From: Williamsia sp. 1138
GTDB lineage: Bacteria; Actinomycetota; Actinomycetes; Mycobacteriales; Mycobacteriaceae
DNA: 42,561 nucleotides
Direction: 5' to 3'
NCBI RefSeq assembly: GCF_002095435.2
Contig: NZ_MJEJ02000018.1
Span: 1 to 42,561 of the forward strand
Shown here: positions 2,850-18,539 of the stretch, one piece after another
Layout of the letters: each line of letters starts with the position of its first letter
Numbering within the stretch: the stretch's first letter is position 1
The notes under the pieces: generated by a model
The model's input: only the letters and a program-made list of their open reading frames with translations
Database searches by the model: none
Told to the model about the DNA's origin: nothing
Translations under genes and position numbers: made by a program

Positions 2850-3539
2850 TCAACCTTTGATGAGTCCGACAGCCACCATTGAATTGACGACGCTCGCCGC
2901 GACAGTCCGAGCGACCGCGACACCGACAGCATCGGCGCCCCATTCGCCACGCTCGAGTTCCTTGCCACGCGTGTACACATCACCCGACCACGGGATGTCG
3001 CGATAGAAGGTGGGGAGCGTGCCGCTCGCCGACAGCAATGCTCCGAGCGCTGCGATCCGGGGCTGCGGGCTCACTCCATCGACAAAGACCGCCCGAACCT
3101 GCGCCAACAAGTCACTGCGTCGTCTCCCGTCGCCCTCGCGCAACGACGTTGTGGTGAACAGCCGCAACCTCTTCTTGCGTTCGGCAACGATGTACCCGCG
3201 TTCGACCAACCGGTCGAGGACGATCGGTCGCAGCGTCGGACCGATGGACGCCAGGAGGGTCTGCGGGTCCCGCGGCTTCTCCGCGATTCGGTTCCACGCC
3301 GACCTGAGCAGCGGGTCTGTCGGAGGGGTGTCCTCGACAGCGCTGACGAGACTCCCACGCAGGCCACCCCGGTTCTCGATGGCGATCTGATTGGTGAAGG
3401 CGAGTTCGGTCAGAACCGCACCACCGAGAACATAGAACAGGGTGCCTTCGCCGGCGATCGTCCCGGATCGGGGGTCGAACAGCAGCAACAGGAGGTCTTC
3501 GGCGATCAGCGGATCCTTGGACGAATTCGGCGTGCTCAT
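2850..3539 (-). CDS. GPP34 (GOLPH3/VPS74-like) family protein
   Basis: A 229-residue protein with the N-terminal signature of the GPP34 family: LIAEDLLLLLFDP (about residues 11-23), then a GTIAGEG segment and a mostly helical body. In eukaryotes GOLPH3/Vps74 binds phosphatidylinositol-4-phosphate on Golgi membranes. Actinobacteria often carry cytosolic homologues of unknown role, so the family name says little about function here. The ATG at 3539 is preferred over a TTG one codon upstream. It overlaps the stop of the upstream cupin gene by one base (TGATG), so translation is probably coupled. It is the last gene of the MerR-cupin-GPP34 operon. Confidence 0.8.
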   Translation of the reverse strand: MSTPNSSKDPLIAEDLLLLLFDPRSGTIAGEGTLFYVLGGAVLTELAFTNQIAIENRGGLRGSLVSAVEDTPPTDPLLRSAWNRIAEKPRDPQTLLASIGPTLRPIVLDRLVERGYIVAERKKRLRLFTTTSLREGDGRRRSDLLAQVRAVFVDGVSPQPRIAALGALLSASGTLPTFYRDIPWSGDVYTRGKELERGEWGADAVGVAVARTVAASVVNSMVAVGLIKG

Positions 3540-3955
3540 CAAGCGTTCGGCGCTTGGTTGTATTCGTCATCGGTGACCGGGGACAGCCACTCGACAGCGG
3601 CGTTGTCGTCGTCGGCCTCGTTGATGGCCAGGTGCACCATCAGCCTCGTCGGTGCGGCGCCATGCCAATGCTCTTCGTCGGCCTCGAACAACACCCGGTC
3701 ACCGGGCCTGATGACCTCGACGGGTCCACCCCGGCGCTGGCACAACCCGACTCCTTCTGTCACGAACACGGATTGACTGAGCGCGTGACGGTGCCAATGT
3801 GTGCGGGCGCCGGGCATGAAGTGAACGAGATTGGCTGACACCCGTGACGGCGCCGGAGCGGCTGCCACCGCGTCGATGTACACGTCCCCGGTGAACCAGT
3901 CCTGCGGGCCTTTGGCGGTGTCGATCGAGCTGCGAACTATGTGCATGCTCTCCAT
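3539..3955 (-). CDS. Small cupin-domain protein (hydroxynitrile-lyase-like cupin type)
   Basis: A 138-residue single-domain cupin. Motif 1 is GARTHWHRHALSQSVFVTEG (starts at residue 49), with H53, H55 and Q61 as likely metal ligands. Motif 2 is PGDRVLFEADEEHWHGA, with the final ligand His. Spacing and length resemble the compact manganese cupins that include bacterial (R)-hydroxynitrile lyases and many uncharacterised relatives; substrate cannot be read from sequence. It lies 21 bp downstream of the merR-type gene and overlaps GPP34 by one base. The MerR protein probably controls it. An alternative start is Met4. Confidence 0.75.
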   Translation of the reverse strand: MESMHIVRSSIDTAKGPQDWFTGDVYIDAVAAAPAPSRVSANLVHFMPGARTHWHRHALSQSVFVTEGVGLCQRRGGPVEVIRPGDRVLFEADEEHWHGAAPTRLMVHLAINEADDDNAAVEWLSPVTDDEYNQAPNA

Positions 3956-7361: not shown

Positions 7362-8429
7362 TCAGTTGTTGTCGTCGTACTTGTTCTTGGAGTTCGTTCG
7401 CCAGTCGGAGAACTTGCGGTTGACGCTCTCTGCCACATCCGAGGCAGCTTGACCGACGCCGTCGACCACCCCTCCGAGCCCGTCGCGGATCCCCTTGATC
7501 AACGGATCTTCGGACTCGTCGAAGTTGTCGCGGTACGCCTTTCGCGCCGCGCCGATATCGTCGGCGACCTTGGCGCTGTCGTCGTCCTCACGCCGCGGGT
7601 AGAGGCCGGCTACGATCTTTCCGTAACCACCGCGATCCACCCAGCGGTTGAGCTCTGCAGCTCGTAGCACCGAGAACGGGTGCGATTGCATCTCCAGGTT
7701 CAGCAACTTGAGGACGCCGTCGCGCAGGTCGCCGGTCCGCTCGTACTCCTTCGCCTGGGCGATGAACGCCTGGGTGTCCATCTGGTCGAGGTGTTTGCCG
7801 CCCGCCAGTTTCAGTTCCACGCGCAGTGCCACATCGAGGTCTTGGCTGCAGAGCAGTCCGGCGCGGTCGCCCGACAGCTCGGACTTGCGTTGCCACTCCA
7901 TCAGTGCGGCGACGATCGCTCGCAACGCCCATCCGCCGAGCGGGATGAACCCGATCGACGCGGCGATCCGGGTCAGGTGCATCAACATCGTTCGGTACAC
8001 CGCGTGCCCCGACAGTGCGTGTCCGAGTTCGTGCCCGATGACAAAGCGCAGCTCGTCGTGGTCCATCAGTTCGTACATGCCGGAGGTGACGACGATGAAG
8101 GGCTTGTCCATCCCGATGCAGACGGCGTTCACCAGCGGCGATTGGGAGATGTAGAGCTCAGGCTTGACCGGCGCGTCGAGGGTTCTCACGCACTCGTCGA
8201 GCAGAGCGTCGAGATCGGCGAATTGCCTGGGGCCCACCCGCGCAGAACTGGCGAGGTACAGCAGCCGGTGCTGACGTTCGCGGAGCAGCCCCGACAACGT
8301 CTTGAGGACCTGGTCGAAACCCTTGAGTCTGCGCAGGGCGGTCAGCGCGGTGCGATCGGCGGGGTGTTCCCACGCCCGCGAACTTATGCCCGGAAACGGG
8401 GCGCGCACGGATACGGGTACCTGGGTCAT
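7362..8429 (-). CDS. M48-family zinc metallopeptidase
   Basis: A 355-residue member of the Ste24/HtpX-like M48 family. The zinc motif HELGH is at residues 133-137 inside VIGHELGHALSGHA, and a downstream KSELSGDRAG segment supplies the glutate ligand. A hydrophobic stretch just after the active site (IAASIGFIPLGGWALRAIVAAL) may contact the membrane. The C-terminal 60 residues are charged and low-complexity. The ATG at 8429 is chosen because GGGAGGA lies 9 bases upstream; a longer frame to 8504 lacks a ribosome site. It is divergent from the SWIM/MoxR system with 175 bp between starts, so co-regulation is possible but unproven. The substrate is unknown. Confidence 0.88.
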   Translation of the reverse strand: MTQVPVSVRAPFPGISSRAWEHPADRTALTALRRLKGFDQVLKTLSGLLRERQHRLLYLASSARVGPRQFADLDALLDECVRTLDAPVKPELYISQSPLVNAVCIGMDKPFIVVTSGMYELMDHDELRFVIGHELGHALSGHAVYRTMLMHLTRIAASIGFIPLGGWALRAIVAALMEWQRKSELSGDRAGLLCSQDLDVALRVELKLAGGKHLDQMDTQAFIAQAKEYERTGDLRDGVLKLLNLEMQSHPFSVLRAAELNRWVDRGGYGKIVAGLYPRREDDDSAKVADDIGAARKAYRDNFDESEDPLIKGIRDGLGGVVDGVGQAASDVAESVNRKFSDWRTNSKNKYDDNN

Positions 8430-8592
8430 CGTCGCTGGTCCTCCCTGTGCCGGATGAGACTGGTGCCCGGCAACCCGATCAACCGTAGCGAAACCCGCGT
8501 TCACAGACCGCGAATGTAGTTCTTTCAGACGACCGAGCCGACGCCACCGACAGGCGTCCCCCTGGCCGGTGGGAGGTGTCGGTTCCCTGGGT

Positions 8593-8598
8593 TAGTTT
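8593..8598 (+). promoter_or_regulatory. -10 element for leaderless start of the SWIM/MoxR operon
   Basis: TAGTTT fits the actinobacterial -10 pattern TANNNT. It ends 6 bases before the GTG at 8605, where the transcript would begin. No convincing ribosome site precedes that GTG, so leaderless translation is likely. Confidence 0.5.
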
Positions 8599-8604
8599 AG
8601 GACC

Positions 8605-9924
8605 GTGGGGACACAGCGATGGCGGGCCGATCAGGTGTTGGCGCTGGCACCTGATGCGGGGTCCCAGGCAGCTGGTCGCAAGCTGGCCATCCCGACGCCG
8701 TGGTCGTCGACAGGCGCCGCGGACAACGTGGTGTGGGGACTGTGTACGGGCAGCGGCAGGAACCCTTATCAAACGATCGTCGACCTCAGCGGCCCCGCGT
8801 ACAGGTGTTCGTGCCCGTCTCGGAAGTTCCCGTGCAAGCACGCACTCGGTCTGCTTCTGCTCTGGGCGGCCGGCGGCGTACCCGATGCCCCGGCAATCGC
8901 CGATTTCGCGAGGCCGTGGATCGACGAGCGCGCCGCGAAGGCTGCGGCTGCCCCGGTCGCCACCGAACGCGCCGAACCCAAGGATCCCGAGCGCGCGGCC
9001 CGAACCGCGGAGCAACGGGCGGTTCGGGTCGCAGGCGGACTCGACGAGTTCGAGATGTGGCTCTCCGACCAGGTTCGCGGCGGACTCGCAGGTGCGGAGG
9101 CCGACCCTTATCGCCGATTCGACCCGGTGGCCGCGCGACTCGTCGACGCCCAGGTGCCCGGGCTGGCCCGCCGGGTCCGGGAACTTCCCGCGCTGGTCAC
9201 CGGAGCCCGGTGGCCGCAGCGGCTCCTCCGCGAACTGGCGATGCTCAGGCTGCTCGCTCGCGCACATCGGCGTATCGACGAACTCGACCCGGCGATGGCC
9301 GCCAATGTCCGCAGGCATCTGGGGTATCCGGTAGCGAAGGCCGATGTGCTGGCAACCGAGCCGGTGCTCGACACCTGGCAGATCGTCGCGGTGCGCGATC
9401 GCGACGACGAACAGCTGATCACCCGCCGGGTCTGGTTGTGGGGTCACACCACGGGCAGATGCGCGGTGGTGCTGTCGTTCTCGCCCAACGTTGCCGGCCT
9501 CGACGGCCGTTTGATCGCCGGGATGTCGTTTGCCGGGCCGGTGCACTTCTACCCGGGCACGCCCCCACTGCGTGCACTCGTACCCGACGGCGATCTGGGA
9601 TTGCGAGCGGCGTCACCGGGAGCTGTGGCCGGGACAACGGTGCAGGCTGCTCTGGGCCGGCGTGCCGAAGCGATCGCCGAAGACCCTTGGCTGCTGAGCT
9701 TCCCGGTCGTCATCGCCGGTAGGCCGGCACTGGCACAGGGGCGCCGACTGCTCGTCGACGACGACGGTGTGTCGATCGACCTCGACACCACCGACGACCG
9801 CTGGTTCGCACTGCTGGCCGTATCGGGCGGACGTCGGGTGAAGGTGTTCGGTGAGCTCGGAACCGAGGGGTTGGACCCGGTTGCCACCGAAGCTCCCCAG
9901 GCGCAACGGATCGACGCAGCGTGA
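8605..9924 (+). CDS. SWIM zinc-finger protein, first gene of the MoxR/VWA five-gene system
   Basis: A 439-residue protein whose clearest element is a SWIM zinc finger, C-x-C-x6-C-x-H: C68, C70, C77 and H79 within YRCSCPSRKFPCKHALGLLL. SWIM domains bind nucleic acid or protein. An Ala/Glu/Arg-rich linker (about 105-140) leads to a large C-terminal region I do not recognise. The same family in E. coli is yehQ, next to AAA and VWA genes. It overlaps the DUF5691 gene by 4 bp (GTGA) and starts the operon. Its role in the complex is unknown; the zinc finger makes it the likely target-recognition part (inference). Confidence 0.85.
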   Translation: MGTQRWRADQVLALAPDAGSQAAGRKLAIPTPWSSTGAADNVVWGLCTGSGRNPYQTIVDLSGPAYRCSCPSRKFPCKHALGLLLLWAAGGVPDAPAIADFARPWIDERAAKAAAAPVATERAEPKDPERAARTAEQRAVRVAGGLDEFEMWLSDQVRGGLAGAEADPYRRFDPVAARLVDAQVPGLARRVRELPALVTGARWPQRLLRELAMLRLLARAHRRIDELDPAMAANVRRHLGYPVAKADVLATEPVLDTWQIVAVRDRDDEQLITRRVWLWGHTTGRCAVVLSFSPNVAGLDGRLIAGMSFAGPVHFYPGTPPLRALVPDGDLGLRAASPGAVAGTTVQAALGRRAEAIAEDPWLLSFPVVIAGRPALAQGRRLLVDDDGVSIDLDTTDDRWFALLAVSGGRRVKVFGELGTEGLDPVATEAPQAQRIDAA

Positions 9925-11420
9925 GCGGCTGGGACGAACTGGTCTCCGCTGCGACCGTCGGCGTCGGGGGCAAGGCCATCGATGTCCATGACCTCGACCC
10001 TGCGATCGCCGCTGCGGCCTCCCTGGTCGACCCCAAAGACCCAGTGGCAGCGGTTCTTTCGATCGCTGCGCTGGACACCATCGCCACGCGCGCGGGCGTG
10101 TTGGCCGGCCCAACGGCCCAGGTTCTGCCTCCCGCGCCGGACGATTTTGGCCGCGTAATGAGCGACCGCCTCACCGGGTTACTCGGGCAGGCGCTCGACT
10201 CCGGTGACGAGATGGCCACATGGGCGATAGAGGCGATGGCGGCCCGAGACCTGCGAGTTCCGGCGGAACTGATTCCGATGCTGTTGCAGCGCACCAAGCG
10301 TCAGGTCAGGATCCGGCCCGCCGTGGCGGTTCTGGTGGGCGCGCGGGGTCGGTGGCTCGTCGAGGTCAGCGACATCGCAGCAGTGTTGCCGCCCAAAGAT
10401 CTCGGCATGCAACCCGAGGACGTCGATGCCGACGAGATCTGGTCATACGGCAGCACGCCCGCCCGCGTACAGGTGCTTCGTCGATGGCGATCTGAAGATG
10501 GCGCTGGAGCTCTGCAACGCCTGCAAGCGGTCTGGGCGACCGAACCCGGCGACGTACGGGCCGCACTGCTGGGGGCACTCGAGGTCGGACCGTCGCCGGC
10601 CGACGAGGCGTTCCTCGACCAGGCCCTCGACGATCGCAAAGGGTCGGTACGCGCCGCGGCAGCGCGACTGCTCAGCGACATCCCTGACTCCGGACTGCAG
10701 CAACGGATGATCGAACGGGCGCGGCATGTCCTGATCGCCTCCGGTCGCGGACGGCGACGTCGCCTGTCGCTGGTGTTGCCGGAGCGGGCTGACGAATCCG
10801 CTCGACGCGACGGCATCGATCCGACACCCCCGCGGGGCACCGGGCCGGGTGCATGGCTCGCCCGCCAGATCCTGCAGAACACGCCTCTGACGCTGTGGGA
10901 GAGCATGTTCGGTGAGCCGGCACAGATGCTGGTCGAGGCGGTGTCCGAGGATGATGCGGACACCGTGCTGGGTGCCTGGGGCGATGCCGCCGTCGCGCAG
11001 CGCAACGCGACGTGGGCAGGCGCCCTGTATCGGGCGCCGGGAGCCGATCCCGCGCTGATCGGAATCTTGGCTGAACCGAAGAGAAGCGAGGCGACGGTGT
11101 GGTGGCTCCGCAACCGTCGGCCGCCCGGAAACGTGTTGGCTCATGTTTCGGCGCCCTGGACCGATGAGGTGGCCGCGACAGCACTGAATGCGGTGTTACG
11201 CGAGTCGATCTCGCCGTCGTCGACCCCGCTCTGGAACTGGCGTGCCCTGGTCGATCAGCTACGCCTCGGGCTGCCCGTCGGGCCCGGGTATCGCTGGATC
11301 GAACAGATCGAGACGGTGCGTGACCGGATGAAAGGTGGCTGGCCGCAGTTGCTCGAACCACTCAAGTGGGCGCTGATCCTGCGCACCGCGATCACCGAGG
11401 AGATGCATGACGAATCCTGA
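9921..11420 (+). CDS. DUF5691-family protein of the MoxR/VWA system
   Basis: A 499-residue, Ala/Leu/Arg-rich protein that looks wholly helical, with repeated segments suggestive of a HEAT-like scaffold (for example around 225-270, where VRAAAARLLSDIP occurs). It begins SGWDELVSAATVG, the N-terminal signature I associate with DUF5691 proteins found beside SWIM, AAA and DUF5682 genes. No catalytic motif is visible. The start is GTG at 9921, overlapping the SWIM stop by 4 bp, and the end overlaps the ATPase gene by 14 bp, which indicates coupled translation in fixed ratio. A scaffold or adaptor is the simplest guess. Confidence 0.75.
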   Translation: MSGWDELVSAATVGVGGKAIDVHDLDPAIAAAASLVDPKDPVAAVLSIAALDTIATRAGVLAGPTAQVLPPAPDDFGRVMSDRLTGLLGQALDSGDEMATWAIEAMAARDLRVPAELIPMLLQRTKRQVRIRPAVAVLVGARGRWLVEVSDIAAVLPPKDLGMQPEDVDADEIWSYGSTPARVQVLRRWRSEDGAGALQRLQAVWATEPGDVRAALLGALEVGPSPADEAFLDQALDDRKGSVRAAAARLLSDIPDSGLQQRMIERARHVLIASGRGRRRRLSLVLPERADESARRDGIDPTPPRGTGPGAWLARQILQNTPLTLWESMFGEPAQMLVEAVSEDDADTVLGAWGDAAVAQRNATWAGALYRAPGADPALIGILAEPKRSEATVWWLRNRRPPGNVLAHVSAPWTDEVAATALNAVLRESISPSSTPLWNWRALVDQLRLGLPVGPGYRWIEQIETVRDRMKGGWPQLLEPLKWALILRTAITEEMHDES

Positions 11421-12501
11421 ACCGGACATCCTGCGCCCACATGCGGAGCAGCTGTACGCAGGTGAACTGGCAGCGCTCGCCGCAACAGACGACCGGTCCC
11501 GGCCGCAGCAGTGGAACCTGTCTCCGTCAGCGGTGGTGACGTACCTCCTCGGCGGGACGTTGAGCGATGGAACGGTCATCTCTCCCAAGTACATCGGTCC
11601 GAGGCGGCTGATGGAGGTCGCGGTCGCCACTCTCGCCACGGACCGGGCATTGCTGCTACTCGGCGTCCCCGGTACCGCGAAGACGTGGGTGTCCGAGCAC
11701 CTCAGCGCGGCGATCAGCGGCCGCTCGACCCTGCTGATCCAGGGCACCGCGGGTACTCCTGAAGAGGCGATCCGCTATGGCTGGAACTACGCCCGGCTCC
11801 TCTCCGAGGGTCCGAGCGAGCAGGCGCTGGTGCCCTCTCCGGTGATGACCGCGATGAGCGAGGGCAAGATCGCCCGGATCGAAGAACTCACCCGCATCCC
11901 CTCCGACGTCCAGGACGCGCTGATCACGGTGCTGTCGGAGAAATCGCTGCCGATCCCCGAACTGGGCACCGAAGTGCAGGCCGCCAAGGGGTTCTCGGTG
12001 ATCGCCACGGCGAACAATCGCGACCGCGGTGTCAACGAACTGTCGTCGGCATTGCGCCGGCGTTTCAACACCGTGGTGCTGCCGTTGCCGGCCACCGCCG
12101 ACGAAGAGGTCTCGATCGTCACCCAGCGGGTGCAGGCACTCGGCCAGACGTTGGATCTGCCCGAGATCCCGAGCGCGTCGGAGGAGATCCGCCGCGTGGT
12201 CACGGTGTTCCGCGAATTGCGCTCGGGACTCACCGCCGACGGCCGCACCCGTGTGAAACAACCGTCGGGCACCTTGTCGACCGCTGAGGCGATCTCGGTG
12301 GTCACGCACGGGGTGGTGATGTCTGCGCACTTCGGTGACGGAGTCCTTCGGCCGTCCGACACCGCCGCGGGCATTCTCGGTGCCGTGGTCAAGGATCCGA
12401 TCGCGGACGCCGTGGTGTGGACCGAATACCTGGAAGCGGTTGTGCGCGAGCGTAAGGACTGGGCCGACTTCTACCGGGCGTGCCGCGAGGTGGAACATTG
12501 A
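11407..12501 (+). CDS. MoxR-type AAA+ ATPase of the five-gene system
   Basis: A 364-residue AAA+ ATPase. Walker A is GVPGTAKT (86-93); Walker B ends in I158-E159-E160 (RIEELTRIP, with Glu in place of the usual Asp, as in many MoxR proteins); sensor 1 is TANNRDR (N203/N204); the Arg finger lies in SSALRRRF (R217-R219). MoxR ATPases pair with VWA proteins and remodel partner complexes, for example inserting metals or cofactors. It corresponds to E. coli yehL by context. The ATG at 11407 overlaps the DUF5691 stop by 14 bp, and its stop overlaps the DUF5682 start by 4 bp. It is probably the motor of the system. Confidence 0.9.
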   Translation: MTNPEPDILRPHAEQLYAGELAALAATDDRSRPQQWNLSPSAVVTYLLGGTLSDGTVISPKYIGPRRLMEVAVATLATDRALLLLGVPGTAKTWVSEHLSAAISGRSTLLIQGTAGTPEEAIRYGWNYARLLSEGPSEQALVPSPVMTAMSEGKIARIEELTRIPSDVQDALITVLSEKSLPIPELGTEVQAAKGFSVIATANNRDRGVNELSSALRRRFNTVVLPLPATADEEVSIVTQRVQALGQTLDLPEIPSASEEIRRVVTVFRELRSGLTADGRTRVKQPSGTLSTAEAISVVTHGVVMSAHFGDGVLRPSDTAAGILGAVVKDPIADAVVWTEYLEAVVRERKDWADFYRACREVEH

Positions 12502-14801
12502 CGGAGGTGTCCGTCCTGGGCGTACGGCATCACGGTCCGGGTTCGGCTCGCGGCGTCCTCGCCGAACTGGACCGGATCGATCCCGACATCATCCTGATCG
12601 AGGGTCCGGCGGATGCAGATCCGCTCGTCGGATTCGTGGGTGCAGCGGACATGACGCCGCCGGTCGCGATCCTCGCGTATGCCGTCGATCGTCCGGCTGT
12701 CGCAGCATTTTGGCCGTTCGCGGCCTTCTCTCCGGAGTGGCAGGCCATGCGATGGGCAAACGAATCGGATGTACCGGTGCGATTCTGCGATCTGCCCGCC
12801 GCCATGGTGCTCGCCCATGGTCTTCGCGGCGACCAGGATGCGACGGAGACCTCGGACGAGGACCCGACCCTCGACCTCGCCGAGCCCGACGGACTCGATG
12901 CGAGCGCACCTGTGCGGACCGATCCCATCGGCGTGCTCGCCGATGCCGCCGGCTATGACGATCCCGAACGCTGGTGGGACGATGTCATCGAAACTCGTTC
13001 CGACGGGGGAGGGTTCGAGGCCATCGCGGAGGCCATGGCCGCCCTGCGAGACGAGCTGCCACCGGTAGGTGATCAGGGCGATCGGCTCCACGAGCAGCGC
13101 CGCGAAGCGCAGATGCGGCAGGTGCTCCGAAAGGCGATCAAAGAACCCGGCGTGGAGCGGGTCGTGGTGGTCTGTGGCGCCTGGCATGCGCCGGCGCTGA
13201 TGGGCAAGCTGCCGCCTGCGACGGGTGATGCCAAGCTACTGCGCGGCACACCCAAGGTCCGGGTGAAGCTTGCCTGGGTGCCGTGGACCCATTCGCGGCT
13301 GGCGTTCGCATCCGGATACGGCGCGGGGGTCCTCTCGCCAGGCTGGTACCACCATCTGTTCACGCAGCCGCAGGAGGTGATCACCCGTTGGCTGATCAAG
13401 GTTGCGCGCCTGTTGCGGGACAAAGACATTGCGATCTCCTCGGCGCACGTCATCGAGAGCGCGCGGTTGGCCGAAGCGCTCGCGACGTTGCGGCACCGTC
13501 CGCTGCCCGGGCTCGCCGAGGTCACCGAGGCCACCGAGGCGGTGATGTGCGACGGCGACGACTCCGTCATGGCGCTGATCAACGACGAGCTGGTGATCGG
13601 CGAACTACTCGGGTCCACGCCCGCCGACGCCCCGACAGTTCCACTCGAGGCAGATCTACGGGCAAGTGCGCGTTCGGCGCGGCTGAAGATCGACCCCATG
13701 GTCCGGCAACTCGTCCTGGATCTCCGCAAGCCCTCAGATCTGTCGAAATCAGTGCTGCTGCACCGCCTCGCATCGCTCGACATCGACTGGGGTGTGCCGG
13801 AGGATGTCACCGGGTCGGGCACCTTCAAGGAGGGCTGGCGTCTCGCGTGGAAGCCGGACTTCGCGATAGACATCGTCGTCGCGGCGGTGTGGGGCACCAC
13901 CGTCGAGGCCGCAGCGACCAGCAGACTGATCGACCGCGCGACGACGGCAACGCGGCTGGCCCAGGTGACTGCGGTCCTCGAACAGGCACTGCTGGCCGAC
14001 CTTCCGGACGCCGTCAGCCGGGTGCTCGGCGCTTTGCGCGATCGCGCGGCCATCGACCGCGACGTCGAGCACCTGATGAACGCGTTGCCTGCACTGTCGC
14101 GGGCGTTGCGCTACGGCGATGTTCGCGGCACCGATACCCGGGCGCTGGCCGAGGTCACCACGTCCCTGCTCGTCCGGGTGTGCGCCGGACTGCCCGCTGC
14201 CGTGACCGGGCTGGGCGCTGAGGCTGCCGCGGAGTTCCGGAAGCTGATCGATCAGGTGCAGGAGGTGACCGACCTCCTCGAGCAGGTCGGGATCGCCGGG
14301 GAGGAAGCAGCGACCTGGCGTGAAGTGCTGCGCGCACTGGCCGACCGGAGGGATCTGCACGGCGCCCTGGTCGGCCGAATCGTCCGCATCCTGCTGGACT
14401 CGCGCGAGATCGACGCCGATGATGCCGCCACCAGGTTGCACCGGGCGCTGTCGGTCGGCGCGGTCCCCGCCGACAAGGCGGCGTGGATCGACGGCTTCAT
14501 CGGCGGGGGTGGGCTGCTGCTGGTCCACGACCGATCACTGCTCGCCGTCATCGACCACTGGCTCGCAGGTCTACCCGACGAGCAGTTCACCGAGTTGGTC
14601 CCGCTGTTGCGCCGCACCTTCAGCTTGTTCGAGGCGGGCATCCGCCGCAATATCGCGGAGTCGGTGAAGGGGATCGGAGGCGGGGTGATCGCGGTGGCAG
14701 CGCCTTCGCAGATCGATGCAGAACGCGCCGCGCCGGCCGTCGCCGTGGTCGCGAGTCTGCTCGGACTGCTGCCCGCAGCGGAGGGGAGTGCTGATGCCTG
14801 A
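12498..14801 (+). CDS. DUF5682-family protein of the MoxR/VWA system
   Basis: A 767-residue protein. Three conserved-looking motifs lie in the first 240 residues: VRHHGPGSA (9-17), LIEGPAD (33-39) and CGAWHAPAL (226-234). The arrangement (His near a first strand, Glu at the end of a second, G-x-x-H late) resembles the TraB/TIKI/erythromycin-esterase-like enzymes, so a hydrolase-like active site is plausible; this is inference. The remaining 500 residues are helical and unrecognised. E. coli yehM is the positional counterpart. I prefer TTG at 12498: it overlaps the ATPase stop (TTGA), follows a GAGGTGG site by 4-5 bases, and gives the usual short N-terminus before RHHGPGSA. A longer frame to 12480 and GTG at 12507 are alternatives. 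Confidence 0.8.
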   Translation: MTEVSVLGVRHHGPGSARGVLAELDRIDPDIILIEGPADADPLVGFVGAADMTPPVAILAYAVDRPAVAAFWPFAAFSPEWQAMRWANESDVPVRFCDLPAAMVLAHGLRGDQDATETSDEDPTLDLAEPDGLDASAPVRTDPIGVLADAAGYDDPERWWDDVIETRSDGGGFEAIAEAMAALRDELPPVGDQGDRLHEQRREAQMRQVLRKAIKEPGVERVVVVCGAWHAPALMGKLPPATGDAKLLRGTPKVRVKLAWVPWTHSRLAFASGYGAGVLSPGWYHHLFTQPQEVITRWLIKVARLLRDKDIAISSAHVIESARLAEALATLRHRPLPGLAEVTEATEAVMCDGDDSVMALINDELVIGELLGSTPADAPTVPLEADLRASARSARLKIDPMVRQLVLDLRKPSDLSKSVLLHRLASLDIDWGVPEDVTGSGTFKEGWRLAWKPDFAIDIVVAAVWGTTVEAAATSRLIDRATTATRLAQVTAVLEQALLADLPDAVSRVLGALRDRAAIDRDVEHLMNALPALSRALRYGDVRGTDTRALAEVTTSLLVRVCAGLPAAVTGLGAEAAAEFRKLIDQVQEVTDLLEQVGIAGEEAATWREVLRALADRRDLHGALVGRIVRILLDSREIDADDAATRLHRALSVGAVPADKAAWIDGFIGGGGLLLVHDRSLLAVIDHWLAGLPDEQFTELVPLLRRTFSLFEAGIRRNIAESVKGIGGGVIAVAAPSQIDAERAAPAVAVVASLLGLLPAAEGSADA

Positions 14802-15969
14802 ACAACCCGAACCGGACCCGGTGGAGGACGCGCGGCTGCGACGGTGGCGGATGGTCGTCGGGACGCAGGCCGACGATGCGCTCGGCAGACCCGGCGGCGG
14901 GCAGATGCAGGAGATGGACCGCTCACTCGCTGCGCTGTACGAGGCGCCCAGTGGTCGCCGGGGCGGGCTGGGTGGCTCGGCGCCGTCGGTGGCCCGGTGG
15001 CTCGGCGACATCCGAAAGTATTTCCCGTCCAACGTCGTCCAGGTGATGCAACGCGACGCCGTGGACCGCCTGGGGATCGCCGCACTGCTCGCCGAACCCG
15101 AGCTGATGGACACCGTCGAGGCGAACATCGACATGGTCAGCACCCTGATCAGTCTGGGCAAGGCGATCCCCGAGACCTCACGAGCATCGGCCCGGACTCT
15201 CGTTCGCAAGGTCGTCGACGACGTGGAACGCCGGATCGCCGATCAGACCAGGGCGGCAATCACCGGCGCCCTCAATCGTGCCGCGACAACCCATCGGCCC
15301 AGACCTGCCGACATCGACTGGAATCGGACGATCGCCAAGAATCTCAAACACTATCTGCCCGAATACCGGACGATCGTCCCGCAGCAGCTGGTGGGGCACG
15401 GTCGTCGCTCGCAGCAGCTGGGTCGCGACGTCGTGGTGGCGATCGACCAGTCCGGGTCGATGGCGGCGTCGATCGTCTACGCCTCCATCTTCGGTTCGGT
15501 ACTGGCCTCGATGCGCTCCATCCGCACGTCCCTGGTGCTCTTCGACACCGAAGTCGTCGATCTGACAGATGAATTGGACGATCCGGTGGACGTCCTGTTC
15601 GGTGCGACGCTCGGCGGTGGCACGGATATCAACCAGGCGATCGCCTACTGCCAGGGCCTGATCACCCGGCCGACCGAGTCGATCTTCGTCCTGATCTCCG
15701 ACCTCTACGAAGGTGGTCTCCGCGACAAGATGCTGGCGCGGGTCGCCGCGATGACCGATGCCGGTATCACCGTCGTGGTGCTGCTGGCGTTGTCCGACGA
15801 GGGAGCGCCCGCCTTCGACCGTGATATCGCACTGGCGTTGGCCGACATGGGTATACCGGCGTTCGCCTGTACGCCCGACGCCTTTCCGGAACTGCTGGCG
15901 GTGGCGATCGGGCGCGGCGACATCACGGCCTGGGCGGCCTCGAAAGAACTCGAACAGCGCGGGATGTGA
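14794..15969 (+). CDS. VWA-domain protein of the MoxR/VWA system
   Basis: A 391-residue protein. Its N-terminal half is helical with many Arg/Asp residues. Its C-terminal half (about 212-391) is a von Willebrand factor A domain with a complete metal site: DQSGS (218-222), T277 in LGGGTDIN and D303 in LISDLYEGG. VWA partners of MoxR ATPases use this site to dock on a carboxylate of a client protein. It corresponds to E. coli yehP by domain and context. The ATG at 14794 has GGAGGGGAG just upstream and overlaps the DUF5682 stop by 8 bp. There is no signal peptide, so the complex should be cytoplasmic. It is the last gene of the operon, 3 bp from the stop of the convergent lipoprotein gene. Confidence 0.9.
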   Translation: MPEQPEPDPVEDARLRRWRMVVGTQADDALGRPGGGQMQEMDRSLAALYEAPSGRRGGLGGSAPSVARWLGDIRKYFPSNVVQVMQRDAVDRLGIAALLAEPELMDTVEANIDMVSTLISLGKAIPETSRASARTLVRKVVDDVERRIADQTRAAITGALNRAATTHRPRPADIDWNRTIAKNLKHYLPEYRTIVPQQLVGHGRRSQQLGRDVVVAIDQSGSMAASIVYASIFGSVLASMRSIRTSLVLFDTEVVDLTDELDDPVDVLFGATLGGGTDINQAIAYCQGLITRPTESIFVLISDLYEGGLRDKMLARVAAMTDAGITVVVLLALSDEGAPAFDRDIALALADMGIPAFACTPDAFPELLAVAIGRGDITAWAASKELEQRGM

Positions 15970-15972
15970 ACG

Positions 15973-16953
15973 TCAGGCGGGGATCTTCTCGGCCGCCGGC
16001 GCGATGAGGTCCAGCGCGAAAGGCACCGACAGAACCGTCGGGTTACTCAGCGCCGAGGCGTTGTTGTTGTTCACGAACACGGTGGCGCCACTCTTGACGG
16101 CGGTACGGTTCGCCCAGCCCGGCAGGGCGTCGAAAGCCGCCGGATCGCCGCCGAGTGGCCACAGCACCAACAGATCCGAGTCCAGCAGATCGGTACGCTC
16201 AGCTGAGACCAGAACTCGACTCTGTCCTTCCGCCACTTCCTTGATCTTGGGATCGAGCACAAACCCCATGGAAGTCATCAGCTTGGTGGTCGGGTCGTTC
16301 TCGTCCGCGATCAGACCGATCTGACCTTCTGCGTTCAACTGCCCGAACGAGAATGTCTTGCCCTGCGCGTTCGGGTGCGCAGTCTTGAAGTCGGTGAGCT
16401 GTTGCTCGGCGTCGTCGACCAGAGACTGTGCCTGATCCTGCTTCCCGAAGATCTTTCCTGCTGTCAGGGTCACGTCCTGCCACGAATCCATGACCGCGTC
16501 CTTCTGCATGACCGGGATCACCGGCGCAACCTGGCGCAGGCGCTTGTATTCGTCTTCGCTGCCCAGATATCCGGCCAGAATGATGTCCGGCTCGATGGCC
16601 GCGAGCTGGGGAACACTGATCGATTCGGCGCCCAGGTACGGGATGACCTCGGACTCGTGAGCCGGTGTCCACTCGAACTTGTTGTTCTCTCCCGAGTAGC
16701 CCTCGGTGACATATTCGGCCTTGATCGGCACGTCCAGGGCAACCAGTGCATCGGTCCAGCTGCCCAGCATGGTGACCACCACCTTCGGCTCGGAGTCGAT
16801 GGTGGTGGAACCGAACTCGTGCTCGATGGTGATCGACTCGAAGCCACTGCTGTCGGACTTGTCGTCGTCCGGGGAGCTGCAGCCCGCGACCACGAGCGCC
16901 ATCGCCACCAACGCGGTTCCCGCCGTACCGAACCGGCGTGAAAACTTTCCCAA
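15973..16953 (-). CDS. Iron-siderophore ABC transporter substrate-binding lipoprotein
   Basis: A 326-residue FecB/FepB-type binding protein. The signal peptide ends in the lipobox VAGC with lipidated Cys25, followed by an acidic Ser/Asp linker. Two lobes are joined by a long helix; the segment PKVVVTMLGSWTDALVALDV and the later LAAIEPDIILAGY are typical of this family. It would capture a ferric siderophore or haem-like ligand outside the membrane. No permease or ATPase gene is adjacent, so it must use a transporter encoded elsewhere. An iron box 36 bp upstream of its start indicates repression by IdeR/DtxR when iron is sufficient. Its 3' end nearly abuts the VWA gene. Confidence 0.9.
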   Translation of the reverse strand: MGKFSRRFGTAGTALVAMALVVAGCSSPDDDKSDSSGFESITIEHEFGSTTIDSEPKVVVTMLGSWTDALVALDVPIKAEYVTEGYSGENNKFEWTPAHESEVIPYLGAESISVPQLAAIEPDIILAGYLGSEDEYKRLRQVAPVIPVMQKDAVMDSWQDVTLTAGKIFGKQDQAQSLVDDAEQQLTDFKTAHPNAQGKTFSFGQLNAEGQIGLIADENDPTTKLMTSMGFVLDPKIKEVAEGQSRVLVSAERTDLLDSDLLVLWPLGGDPAAFDALPGWANRTAVKSGATVFVNNNNASALSNPTVLSVPFALDLIAPAAEKIPA

Positions 16954-16988: not shown

Positions 16989-17007
16989 TTAGGGCAGCCT
17001 AACCAAT
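16989..17007 (-). promoter_or_regulatory. IdeR/DtxR-type iron box
   Basis: The 19-mer TTAGGGCAGCCTAACCAAT (plus strand) matches the IdeR consensus TTAGGTTAGGCTAACCTAA at 15 of 19 positions when read on the minus strand. It contains GGTTAGG-N4-CCTAACC as a perfect inverted repeat. It lies 36-54 bp upstream of the lipoprotein ATG, where a repressor would cover the promoter. Confidence 0.8.
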
Positions 17008-17041
17008 GAGGCGGTGGAGGTAAAGCTGGGTCTGTCCCCAC

Positions 17042-18460
17042 CTACGTGGTGGCGCTGCTCTCTGACGCTGCGGGTGAGGCGTCGGTGTTCCCGTACTTCT
17101 TCTGGCGCCAGACGCCGATGCCGACAATGACCACGGCGGAGATGGTCGACAGCAGAATTGCGTCTTGCTGATTCGAGTCGAAGGCCATCAGGACCAGGAC
17201 CGCGATGATGAAGACGATCACCGCAACCGTGAGGAAGGGGAACAGCCACATCGTGACCGCAGGCGTCTCTTTGCGCGCTCGCATAGACCGGCCGAGGACG
17301 AATTGGCTCACGGCGATCGAGAGATAGACGAACAATGCGACGGCGCCGCTCGTCGCGAGCAGGTAGCCAAAGATCTTGTCCGGCAGGACGTAGTTGCCGA
17401 TGACCGCGAGGAACCCCAGAGCCATCGACGCGATGACCGACACCCACGGCACGCCGTTCGCGGTCAGCTTCTTGACTGCCGCCGGAGCCTCGCCGCGGTC
17501 GCCGAGCGAGAACAGCATCCGGGAGGCGGTGTAGAGCGCGGAATTCAGGCACGACGCGACCGCGGTGAGCACCACGATGTCCATGATCTGCGCCGAGGCC
17601 GGAATGCCGATGGCCTCCAACACTGTTTGGTACGAGCCATCGTCGAGCTGGTTGTACGGAACCAGGGCCACGATGACGAAGATCGAGCCGATGTAGAAGA
17701 TGCTGATGCGCCAGATCACCGAGTTGACTGCCTTGCGAATCCCTTTCTCGGGGTCGGGCGACTCCGCTGCGGCGATGGTGACGATCTCGGTGCCCATGAA
17801 CGAGAACATCGTCACCAGCATGGCGGAGATGATCGCGGCGTACCCGTTGGCGAAGAATCCGTCGGGTTCCCACAGGTGACTCACGCCGCTGGTCTCCGAC
17901 CCCGGGAACAAACCGAGGATGGCGAGCACGCCGATCGTGATGAAGGCAACGATGGCAACGACTTTGATGAGGGCGAACCAGAATTCGAACTCGCCGTAGT
18001 TCCCGACGCTGACGAGATTGGTGGCGGTCAGGAGCAGGGTCACCGCGAGGGCCCAGATCCATTGGTCGCCGCCGATCAGTTTGCTGAAGATCTCTGCGGC
18101 CGCCGTGGCCTCCACCGGGATCACGAGGACCCAGAACCACCAATAGAGCCAGCCGACGGAGAATCCCGCCCAGCGTCCGAGCGCGCGGTGCGAATAGACG
18201 GAGAACGATCCGGTGTCCGGATTGGCGGTCGCCATCTCGCCGAGCATGCGCATCACCAGGATCACCAGGGTGCCCGCGAGCGCGTACGAGATGAGGACGG
18301 CGGGGCCGGCTTCTTCGATGGCGTTGGCGGAACCGACGAACAGCCCGGCGCCGATCACTCCGGCGATGGAGATCATGGTGATGTGCCGCGGTTTGAGTGA
18401 GGTCCCGAGCTGTCCCGGCGCCCCGCTCGTGCTGCCGGCTTGCTGATCTTCGGTTGTCAT
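17042..18460 (-). CDS. APC-superfamily amino acid permease (GabP/AAT-like)
   Basis: A 472-residue inner-membrane symporter with about 12 membrane segments. The start of segment 1, SIAGVIGAGLFVGSANAI, is the conserved substrate-binding loop of the AAT family, and GEMATANPDTGSFSVYSH with a YWWFW segment further supports the GabP/AnsP/RocE group. Substrate is an amino acid or 4-aminobutyrate; the exact one cannot be read. The ATG at 18460 follows GGAGGT by 7 bases, and a longer frame to 18520 lacks such a site. It is divergent from the first racemase-family gene and lies near GABA-type aminotransferase and semialdehyde dehydrogenase genes, which may be relevant to its substrate. Confidence 0.88.
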   Translation of the reverse strand: MTTEDQQAGSTSGAPGQLGTSLKPRHITMISIAGVIGAGLFVGSANAIEEAGPAVLISYALAGTLVILVMRMLGEMATANPDTGSFSVYSHRALGRWAGFSVGWLYWWFWVLVIPVEATAAAEIFSKLIGGDQWIWALAVTLLLTATNLVSVGNYGEFEFWFALIKVVAIVAFITIGVLAILGLFPGSETSGVSHLWEPDGFFANGYAAIISAMLVTMFSFMGTEIVTIAAAESPDPEKGIRKAVNSVIWRISIFYIGSIFVIVALVPYNQLDDGSYQTVLEAIGIPASAQIMDIVVLTAVASCLNSALYTASRMLFSLGDRGEAPAAVKKLTANGVPWVSVIASMALGFLAVIGNYVLPDKIFGYLLATSGAVALFVYLSIAVSQFVLGRSMRARKETPAVTMWLFPFLTVAVIVFIIAVLVLMAFDSNQQDAILLSTISAVVIVGIGVWRQKKYGNTDASPAASESSATT

Positions 18461-18539
18461 GGTCCGACCTCCGGTTTGTTCCCTGCAAGGTTGTCCCCGG
18501 CGAGGCGGGGAATCAAACAACGGACATTAGCTCATCTAG

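Follow-up and report, generated by a model that had tools for sequence, protein, structure and literature searches.

In the 42,561-nucleotide stretch of Williamsia sp. 1138 DNA analysed here (hereafter the window), five open reading frames (ORFs) follow one another on the (+) strand between 8605 and 15969, encoding in this order a SWIM zinc-finger protein, a DUF5691 protein, a MoxR AAA+ ATPase, a DUF5682 protein and a VWA protein. We report that these five genes are one functional unit and that their products are probably physically linked, and we assign the cluster, from the pairwise identity of its MoxR protein, to the YehL-type MoxR/VWA systems. We propose tentatively, at a probability of roughly 0.4, that a MoxR/VWA ring works a DUF5682 hydrolase on substrates recruited by the SWIM-OB and HEAT-like subunits. 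New here are the placing of the window layout as one of four with a matching DUF5682 tree, a hydrolase motif set in DUF5682 and a predicted tandem OB fold in the SWIM protein, the latter two being supported rather than proven. The features of the cluster are as follows.

8605..9924 (+), SWIM zinc-finger protein, 439 residues, finger plus conserved C-terminal module (Pfam SWIM PF04434, E 1.9e-6)
8806..8841 (+), SWIM finger CxCx6CxH, residues 68-79 (ligands kept in 56-57 of 58 sequences)
9340..9906 (+), predicted tandem OB-fold module, residues 246-434 of the SWIM protein (moderate fold match)
9921..11420 (+), DUF5691 protein, 499 residues, perhaps with HEAT-like repeats in part (Pfam PF18944, E 4.9e-98)
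11407..12501 (+), YehL-type MoxR AAA+ ATPase, 364 residues (Pfam AAA_5, E 1.7e-39; 40% identity to YehL)
11662..11685 (+), Walker A GVPGTAKT of MoxR
11869..11895 (+), Walker B IARIEELTR (Glu-Glu) of MoxR (76 of 76 type A sequences, 141 of 143 loci)
12498..14801 (+), DUF5682 protein, 767 residues, TTG start (Pfam PF18934, E 6.1e-272; model with predicted local distance difference score 81.8 and predicted template modelling score 0.76)
12498..13337 (+), DUF5682 N-terminal alpha/beta domain with TraB/TIKI-like motifs G8xxH11, H12, E35, R202-E203-xx-M206 and G227xxH230 (from motif set and secondary structure)
13857..14675 (+), DUF5682 C-terminal helical-repeat region, residues 454-726
14794..15969 (+), VWA (CoxE-like) protein, 391 residues (Pfam VWA_CoxE, E 2e-51; 32% identity to YehP)
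15445..15702 (+), VWA metal site (MIDAS) D218xSxS, T277 and D303

The ORF coordinates and Pfam matches bear out the five frames and their overlaps as an earlier sequence-only reading of this DNA had given them. Neighbouring frames overlap by 4, 14, 4 and 8 bp in gene order, the third depending on the DUF5682 start (22 rather than 4 bp with a GTG at 12480) and the last on the VWA start (86 rather than 8 bp with an ATG at 14716). Among NCBIfam models, none was over its cut-off for the cluster proteins. The nearest named relatives of the locus are those of Williamsia sp. 1135 and W. limnetica, and against the latter (L022) the changes in all five genes are mostly synonymous (dN 0.022-0.107, dS 0.47-0.80).

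The five genes form one unit

A DUF5682 pattern scan of genomes from 84,980 species, each species represented once, gave at least 530 confirmed relatives, of which the best 80 were kept for locus work, so that the locus sample is biased to close relatives. By tblastn, all five genes occur in 67 of these 80 loci. Eight of the other 13 end in a contig edge where the absent gene would lie (L044, L048, L056, L068, L073, L077, L079 and L098), L078 gave no VWA match near its edge, L038 has a gene-sized gap without a DUF5691 match, and in the cyanobacterial L067, L071 and L081 DUF5682 lies apart from some or all of its partners. The same gene order recurs across Actinobacteria, Cyanobacteria, Chloroflexi, a planctomycete, a gammaproteobacterium and a Bacteroidota genome, as well as on annotated plasmids of Rhizobium and of Deinococcus, where a small ORF is added; Streptomyces differs in that SWIM and DUF5691 point away from the other three genes. 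For every neighbouring pair, the median is an overlap of 4 bp, fused pairs being counted as large negative values. Two apparent stops in DUF5682 were rejected, since in L071 the alignment overran the ORF end and in L061 a genome search shows no internal stop.

Rare co-occurrence of the genes had been named beforehand as the finding that would speak against a single system, and in both the neighbourhood survey and surveys of three phyla the genes were found to co-occur. The phylum surveys drew genomes evenly around a centre genome already known as a carrier, and their chance figures include the centres and ignore phylogeny. In Actinomycetota, 8 of 119 genomes have DUF5682, and these 8 are also the ones with DUF5691 over the cut-off (chance probability 1.3e-12); in each of them the two matches share a contig and are separated by no more than about 3 kb. 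In Pseudomonadota, 10 of 199 genomes carry DUF5682, and DUF5691 over the cut-off occurs in 5 of 199, exactly those with a high-scoring DUF5682 (1.0e-7), while the 5 with only a YehM-like DUF5682 have no DUF5691. In Cyanobacteriota, DUF5682 was over the cut-off in 7 of 116 genomes and DUF5691 in the same 7 (2.1e-11), the two lying near each other in 4 of these genomes and separated in the other 3. DUF5691 over the cut-off is thus always accompanied by DUF5682 (8 of 8, 5 of 5 and 7 of 7 genomes, respectively); these counts leave out sub-cut-off DUF5691 matches in 1, 1 and 7 further genomes and one sub-cut-off cyanobacterial DUF5682.

The set can also be retained when it is dispersed. The cyanobacteria G366 and G424 keep homologues of all five genes scattered on the chromosome (in G366 at 0.39, 0.46, 1.64, 2.57 and 4.30 Mb of a 5.0-Mb contig), their SWIM homologue being a 320-residue open frame without the finger; because the two are near neighbours in the DUF5682 tree, this dispersal is probably one event. 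G476 has the five genes on five contigs, with one internal TGA in the VWA frame, and in G165 no SWIM homologue was found. The operon is therefore not required for co-retention, and the SWIM finger can be lost. The overlaps had been taken to mean that the five proteins are made in a fixed ratio; however, overlaps do not imply fixed stoichiometry, and the dispersed cyanobacterial sets do without an operon.

Fusions provide a further link: 12 loci (L172 and 11 of the 80) have SWIM::DUF5691 as a single ORF, and 6 distinct loci, all of type C as defined below, have DUF5682::VWA as a single ORF. Together with the co-occurrence and the retention after dispersal, they uphold the earlier proposal of a real unit whose proteins are probably physically linked. 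Mirror-tree correlations of 0.87-0.95 (49 loci) were given no weight, because species phylogeny is uncontrolled in them. A sixth shared gene was sought by clustering the neighbours in the 80 loci and rejected, as no cluster occurs in more than 20 loci; the clusters include out-of-frame ORFs, and the representatives shown are mostly from Streptomyces and sucC/sucD-like by reading only. For the genes that flank the cluster in the window, close matches are confined to L021-L023, all Williamsia, and the MFS, MerR and amidase proteins among them have weak matches of 24-32% in six other loci. With no recurrent extra neighbour, the shared unit is taken as five genes. That the neighbourhood arose by chance or hitch-hiking, with no common function, is highly improbable in view of the co-occurrence, the fusions, the order kept from Bacteroidota and Cyanobacteria to Actinobacteria and the retention after dispersal.

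Four layouts and the E. coli relative

The layouts around DUF5682 were read, using profiles and Pfam, from 20 extended stretches and three annotated plasmid loci. Type A, the window layout, is SWIM-DUF5691-MoxR-DUF5682-VWA and occurs in at least six phyla. Type B is DUF4132-MoxR-DUF5682-VWA-SWIM, with DUF4132 placed after DUF5682 in Allorhizobium and L158. Type C is DUF4132-(unknown)-MoxR-DUF5682::VWA, with a sub-cut-off SWIM match downstream in Streptomyces atratus, and type D is VWA-MoxR-DUF5682, these three genes being its identified members. SWIM genes were found in types A and B. A FastTree phylogeny of 44 DUF5682 proteins (midpoint root) groups them by layout, namely A with 26 members (support 0.92), B with 9 plus L156 (0.97), C with 6 (1.0) and D with 2 (1.0). 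The L156 stretch ends after DUF5682 and so has no layout class; L067, L081, L119, L121 and L123 carry the label A although their DUF5682 genes do not lie in a type A layout; and the L170 protein (99 bits in the survey), unmatched by the DUF5682 profile made for this analysis, is absent from the tree.

DUF4132 proteins may do the job of DUF5691 where the latter is missing, and the DUF4132 protein of Allorhizobium carries a WGR domain. The window has DUF5691 and not the type B layout, and DUF4132 was absent among 10 other window proteins scanned with Pfam. Several DUF5682 types occur within one genome (A, C and D in G063, A and C in G144, A and B in G337), so that the types are not simple replacements of each other. 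Two type C clusters (L152 3729-8651 and L164 5695-10569) have a protein of 1,624-1,640 residues without a Pfam match between DUF4132 and MoxR. On the Iodobacter plasmid pl1 (L151, 13537-15593), the SWIM gene is present as two overlapping ORFs, both matching a type B SWIM profile that was built partly from the first of them; this locus sits among insertion sequences and adjoins a type I restriction system.

The yehI-yehK-yehL-yehM-yehP-yehQ cluster of E. coli K-12 likewise brings together adjoining MoxR, DUF5682, VWA and SWIM proteins, with identities to the window proteins of 40% for MoxR (YehL; 368 columns, E 1.4e-75), 28% for DUF5682 (YehM) and 32% for VWA (YehP), the SWIM protein being matched by Pfam only. 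It is however a type B cluster, having no DUF5691 but the DUF4132 protein YehI nearby, with the SWIM gene last in order, a longer SWIM protein (614 residues) and a DUF5682 in another clade. The match to yehLMPQ given in the sequence-only reading therefore holds for four of the five families, while the order and DUF5691 differ. Of 5,426 complete E. coli genomes, 5,162 contain at least 80% of the yehL-Q stretch, with 5,320 of 5,322 places chromosomal, and 5,177 contain yehI. At 2196474-2203911 of E. coli K-12, yehF, labelled PF05406 (WGR family), and the pseudogene yehH lie beside yehI, next to metG.

A YehL subfamily of MoxR proteins is already on record, with YehL as one of the two MoxR ATPases of E. 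coli K-12 (PMC3893208); the window cluster has the marks of the YehL type, as a YehL-related MoxR, adjoining CoxE-like VWA and DUF5682 genes and a SWIM partner are all present. The earlier suggestion of an undescribed system is thus only half borne out, although the parts list and layouts were not found in the literature searched. No established role turned up there either, nor any mention of DUF5682, DUF5691 or yehLMPQ, nor, as far as the lists of matching papers show, any function for the cluster, most subscription papers lying outside the search.

Within the window's genus, DUF5682 is present in 8 of 9 genomes; elsewhere in the family it is present in 2 of 16, and its presence between genera is patchy (15 of 41 relatives). 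Matches were found in 36 of 72,556 plasmid records, one of them beside a type I restriction system, but six (H3, H22, H23, H26, H27 and H32) are records of 4-12 Mb that look like chromosomes, so that this count is inflated. A faecal record named Bacteriophage sp. (MT835988.1, 10638-12755) holds a DUF5682 relative of 27.6% identity and may be mis-assigned bacterial DNA.

Conserved sites and a candidate hydrolase

The sites expected of the subunits are strongly conserved. All four SWIM ligands are kept in 56-57 of 58 sequences, the finger being missing from 3 shorter homologues (open frames of 320-321 residues), all in dispersed cyanobacterial sets. The VWA protein has DxSxS and the second D in 72 of 72 sequences and the T in 71 of 72, and its Pfam matches are only VWA-type and DUF2201. 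In MoxR, Walker A GxPGTAK[TS] is found in 76 of 76 sequences and the sensor 1 stretch is conserved; Walker B, generally Asp-Glu in other MoxR proteins, is Glu-Glu in all 76 type A sequences; of 143 loci scored, some of which repeat a genome, 141 have it and the remaining 2 fall outside the search pattern. This sets the window MoxR apart from NorQ, CoxD and RavA-type MoxR proteins. Of the intact sites claimed earlier, the SWIM ligands, Walker A and the VWA metal site stand as stated, while the ATP site can be called intact only given this family-wide substitution. The solved relatives of MoxR found by sequence are midasin and NorQ.

DUF5682 may be a hydrolase, since it carries the motif set of the TraB/TIKI/erythromycin-esterase proteins. 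Of 77 type A DUF5682 proteins, 76 carry the set GxxH-E-R[NDE]xx[MW]-GxxH, as do YehM and all 9 TraB proteins; it occurs in none of the 275 proteins from the four remaining families and in 15 of 20,000 shuffles, the pattern having been chosen post hoc. H11, H12, E35, R202, E203, G227 and H230 are identical in 44 of 44 DUF5682 sequences spanning all layouts, and TIKI-family active sites are made of His and Glu (PMC6254334). The motifs share order and similar spacing with those of the TraB/PrgY, TIKI, ChaN and erythromycin-esterase superfamily, likewise on an alpha/beta domain, and in the predicted model the N-terminal element order fits a TraB-type parallel beta-sheet core. Unlike TraB, TIKI and Ere, however, DUF5682 continues into a helical-repeat region, has an AAA+ partner attached and gives no significant whole-domain match. 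Its profile comparison with the superfamily reached E 0.0018 at a probability of 15%, with the alignment limited to the C-terminal motif; whole-model fold searches, dominated by the helical region, returned mainly helical-repeat proteins, with no TraB, TIKI, ChaN or Ere entry among the matches listed; and a search by sequence for a solved relative gave 0 at E <= 10.

The C-terminal module of the SWIM protein is predicted, from a moderate fold match, to adopt a tandem OB fold of the kind found in RPA and HIN domains. It superposes on the tandem OB folds of RPA70 DBD-AB and HIN-200 over 149-171 residues at an identity of only 4-11%, so that the likeness may be of fold only, and in the window protein a SWIM finger precedes the module. 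Most proteins matching the module are DNA- or RNA-binding by title. The DUF5691 protein is perhaps HEAT-like in part, its matches to solved structures being weak only (FliG E 0.011, alphaRep/HEAT E 0.019-0.77 at about residues 193-278, histidine ammonia-lyase E 0.085).

Proposed mechanism and alternatives

We propose that the five proteins make one YehL-type MoxR/VWA machine, in which MoxR would act as an AAA+ ring and the VWA protein as its adaptor, plugging the pore as NorD does with NorQ. DUF5682 would be the attached enzyme-like subunit, with a TraB/TIKI/erythromycin-esterase-like hydrolase domain followed by helical repeats, while the SWIM-OB protein and the HEAT-like DUF5691 protein could jointly serve in recruitment, perhaps of nucleic acid or of proteins bound to it. 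The likeness to tandem OB folds and the WGR domain on the DUF4132 protein of Allorhizobium speak for nucleic acid. NorQ forms a hexamer, the VWA domain of NorD was assigned to the pore plug, and this mode was suggested to be general for MoxR/VWA couples (PMC9976466). In view of this mode and of the fusion of DUF5682 to VWA in type C, the ring is proposed to act on a VWA-DUF5682 assembly, and ATP hydrolysis would remodel that assembly to gate or feed the hydrolase on the recruited substrate. A more specific form is possible, though somewhat doubtful, namely a nucleic acid-guided AAA+ hydrolase in which the SWIM finger and tandem OB fold on a HEAT-like scaffold recruit or sense DNA- or RNA-bound targets and MoxR, via the VWA plug, gates a TIKI-type protease or esterase; such a machine would be ancient, with DUF5691 and DUF4132-WGR scaffolds exchanged.

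Rather doubtful is the alternative that MoxR and VWA insert or rearrange a metal cofactor in a host enzyme, with DUF5682, SWIM and DUF5691 or DUF4132 picking the client. The gene molR is presumably located in the metG-yeh region. By the title of a reference cited in PMC7824862, molR is essential for molybdate use in E. coli; yehM is among the genes mutated in copper-exposed E. coli populations (PMC12409786); and the well-studied pairs NorQ/NorD (Fe) and CoxD (Mo/Cu) serve maturation (PMC9976466; PMC3893208). NorQ/NorD, CoxD/CoxE and RavA/ViaA likewise join a MoxR AAA+ protein to a VWA partner, and matches link the window VWA to the CoxE model and the window MoxR to NorQ. However, the window cluster adds the DUF5682, SWIM-OB and DUF5691 subunits, and no client enzyme was seen near the loci, where the neighbour clusters are unannotated and no family-by-family client search was made. 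In addition, the window's flanking genes are closely matched only in three Williamsia loci, and the hydrolase motif set and the OB module would be unexpected for cofactor insertion.

A role in conflict or defence, in which the SWIM-OB and HEAT subunits would sense foreign nucleic acid and MoxR/VWA would release a DUF5682 hydrolase effector, is unlikely. Such MoxR-vWA ternary conflict systems have been proposed (PMC7159879), and one of the Gac/Rsm-controlled pathways examined for a protective effect against competing bacteria is an uncharacterised MoxR/VWF gene cluster (PMC8926400). The patchy presence between genera, the plasmid matches with one beside a restriction system, the window MoxR passing the bpMoxR cut-off (28.4 against 27 bits) and the resemblance of the predicted OB module to DNA-sensing HIN domains also fit. 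On the other hand, a defence assignment by database match was rejected, the best PADLOC 2.0.0 match being a HEAT model at 13.1 bits (E 0.0027); 0 of 24 pattern stretches in viral contigs were confirmed (one N-terminal pattern only), and 1 of 50,697 phage-collection records matched. The locus is near-core and chromosomal in E. coli and almost constant in the window's genus, with strong conservation and no variable effector seen. Stability within genera with patchiness between them argues against a typical mobile defence island, though it remains compatible with defence, and the defence-type role put forward in the sequence-only reading is weakened accordingly. The ternary systems, with VMAP, iSTAND, FtsH or beta-propeller proteins, likewise have a MoxR-VWA pair with further subunits, but general Pfam scans of the five window proteins gave no beta-propeller or FtsH match and named no VMAP or inactive STAND, the specific models not being run singly; the beta-propeller fused to vWA that marks the beta-propeller type is absent from the window VWA protein.

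Also unlikely, and placed below defence, is protein quality control, by which a general AAA+ machine would unfold or disaggregate proteins under stress, with DUF5682 as a peptidase and the OB fold and SWIM finger binding protein only. OB folds can bind protein, and the SWIM region of the model resembles that of ZSWIM8, which by its entry title sits in a CUL3 complex. MoxR proteins have been described as chaperone-like (PMC3893208). The DNA- or RNA-binding titles of most proteins matching the C-terminal SWIM module speak against binding of protein only.

If the hydrolase reading of the five-protein machine is true, that machine would couple a MoxR/VWA motor directly to an enzyme. With the parts list of a hydrolase-like DUF5682, a SWIM-OB protein and an exchangeable DUF5691 or DUF4132, the orphan operon becomes a machine that can be tested at named residues, and its presence in nearly all complete E. 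coli genomes makes it testable in E. coli K-12.

Other features of the window

Upstream of the cluster, a Clp-type AAA+ protein (219-2771, +) and a GPP34-family protein (2850-3542, -) have matches among the 80 loci only in Williamsia. Downstream, two long ORFs overlap on opposite strands (16989-18488, -, and 17165-18400, +), both matched in three Williamsia loci, the former without a Pfam match at E 0.001. The G+C content is 67-68% in the cluster (8001-16000), against 63-64% in the 8 kb before and 62% just after.

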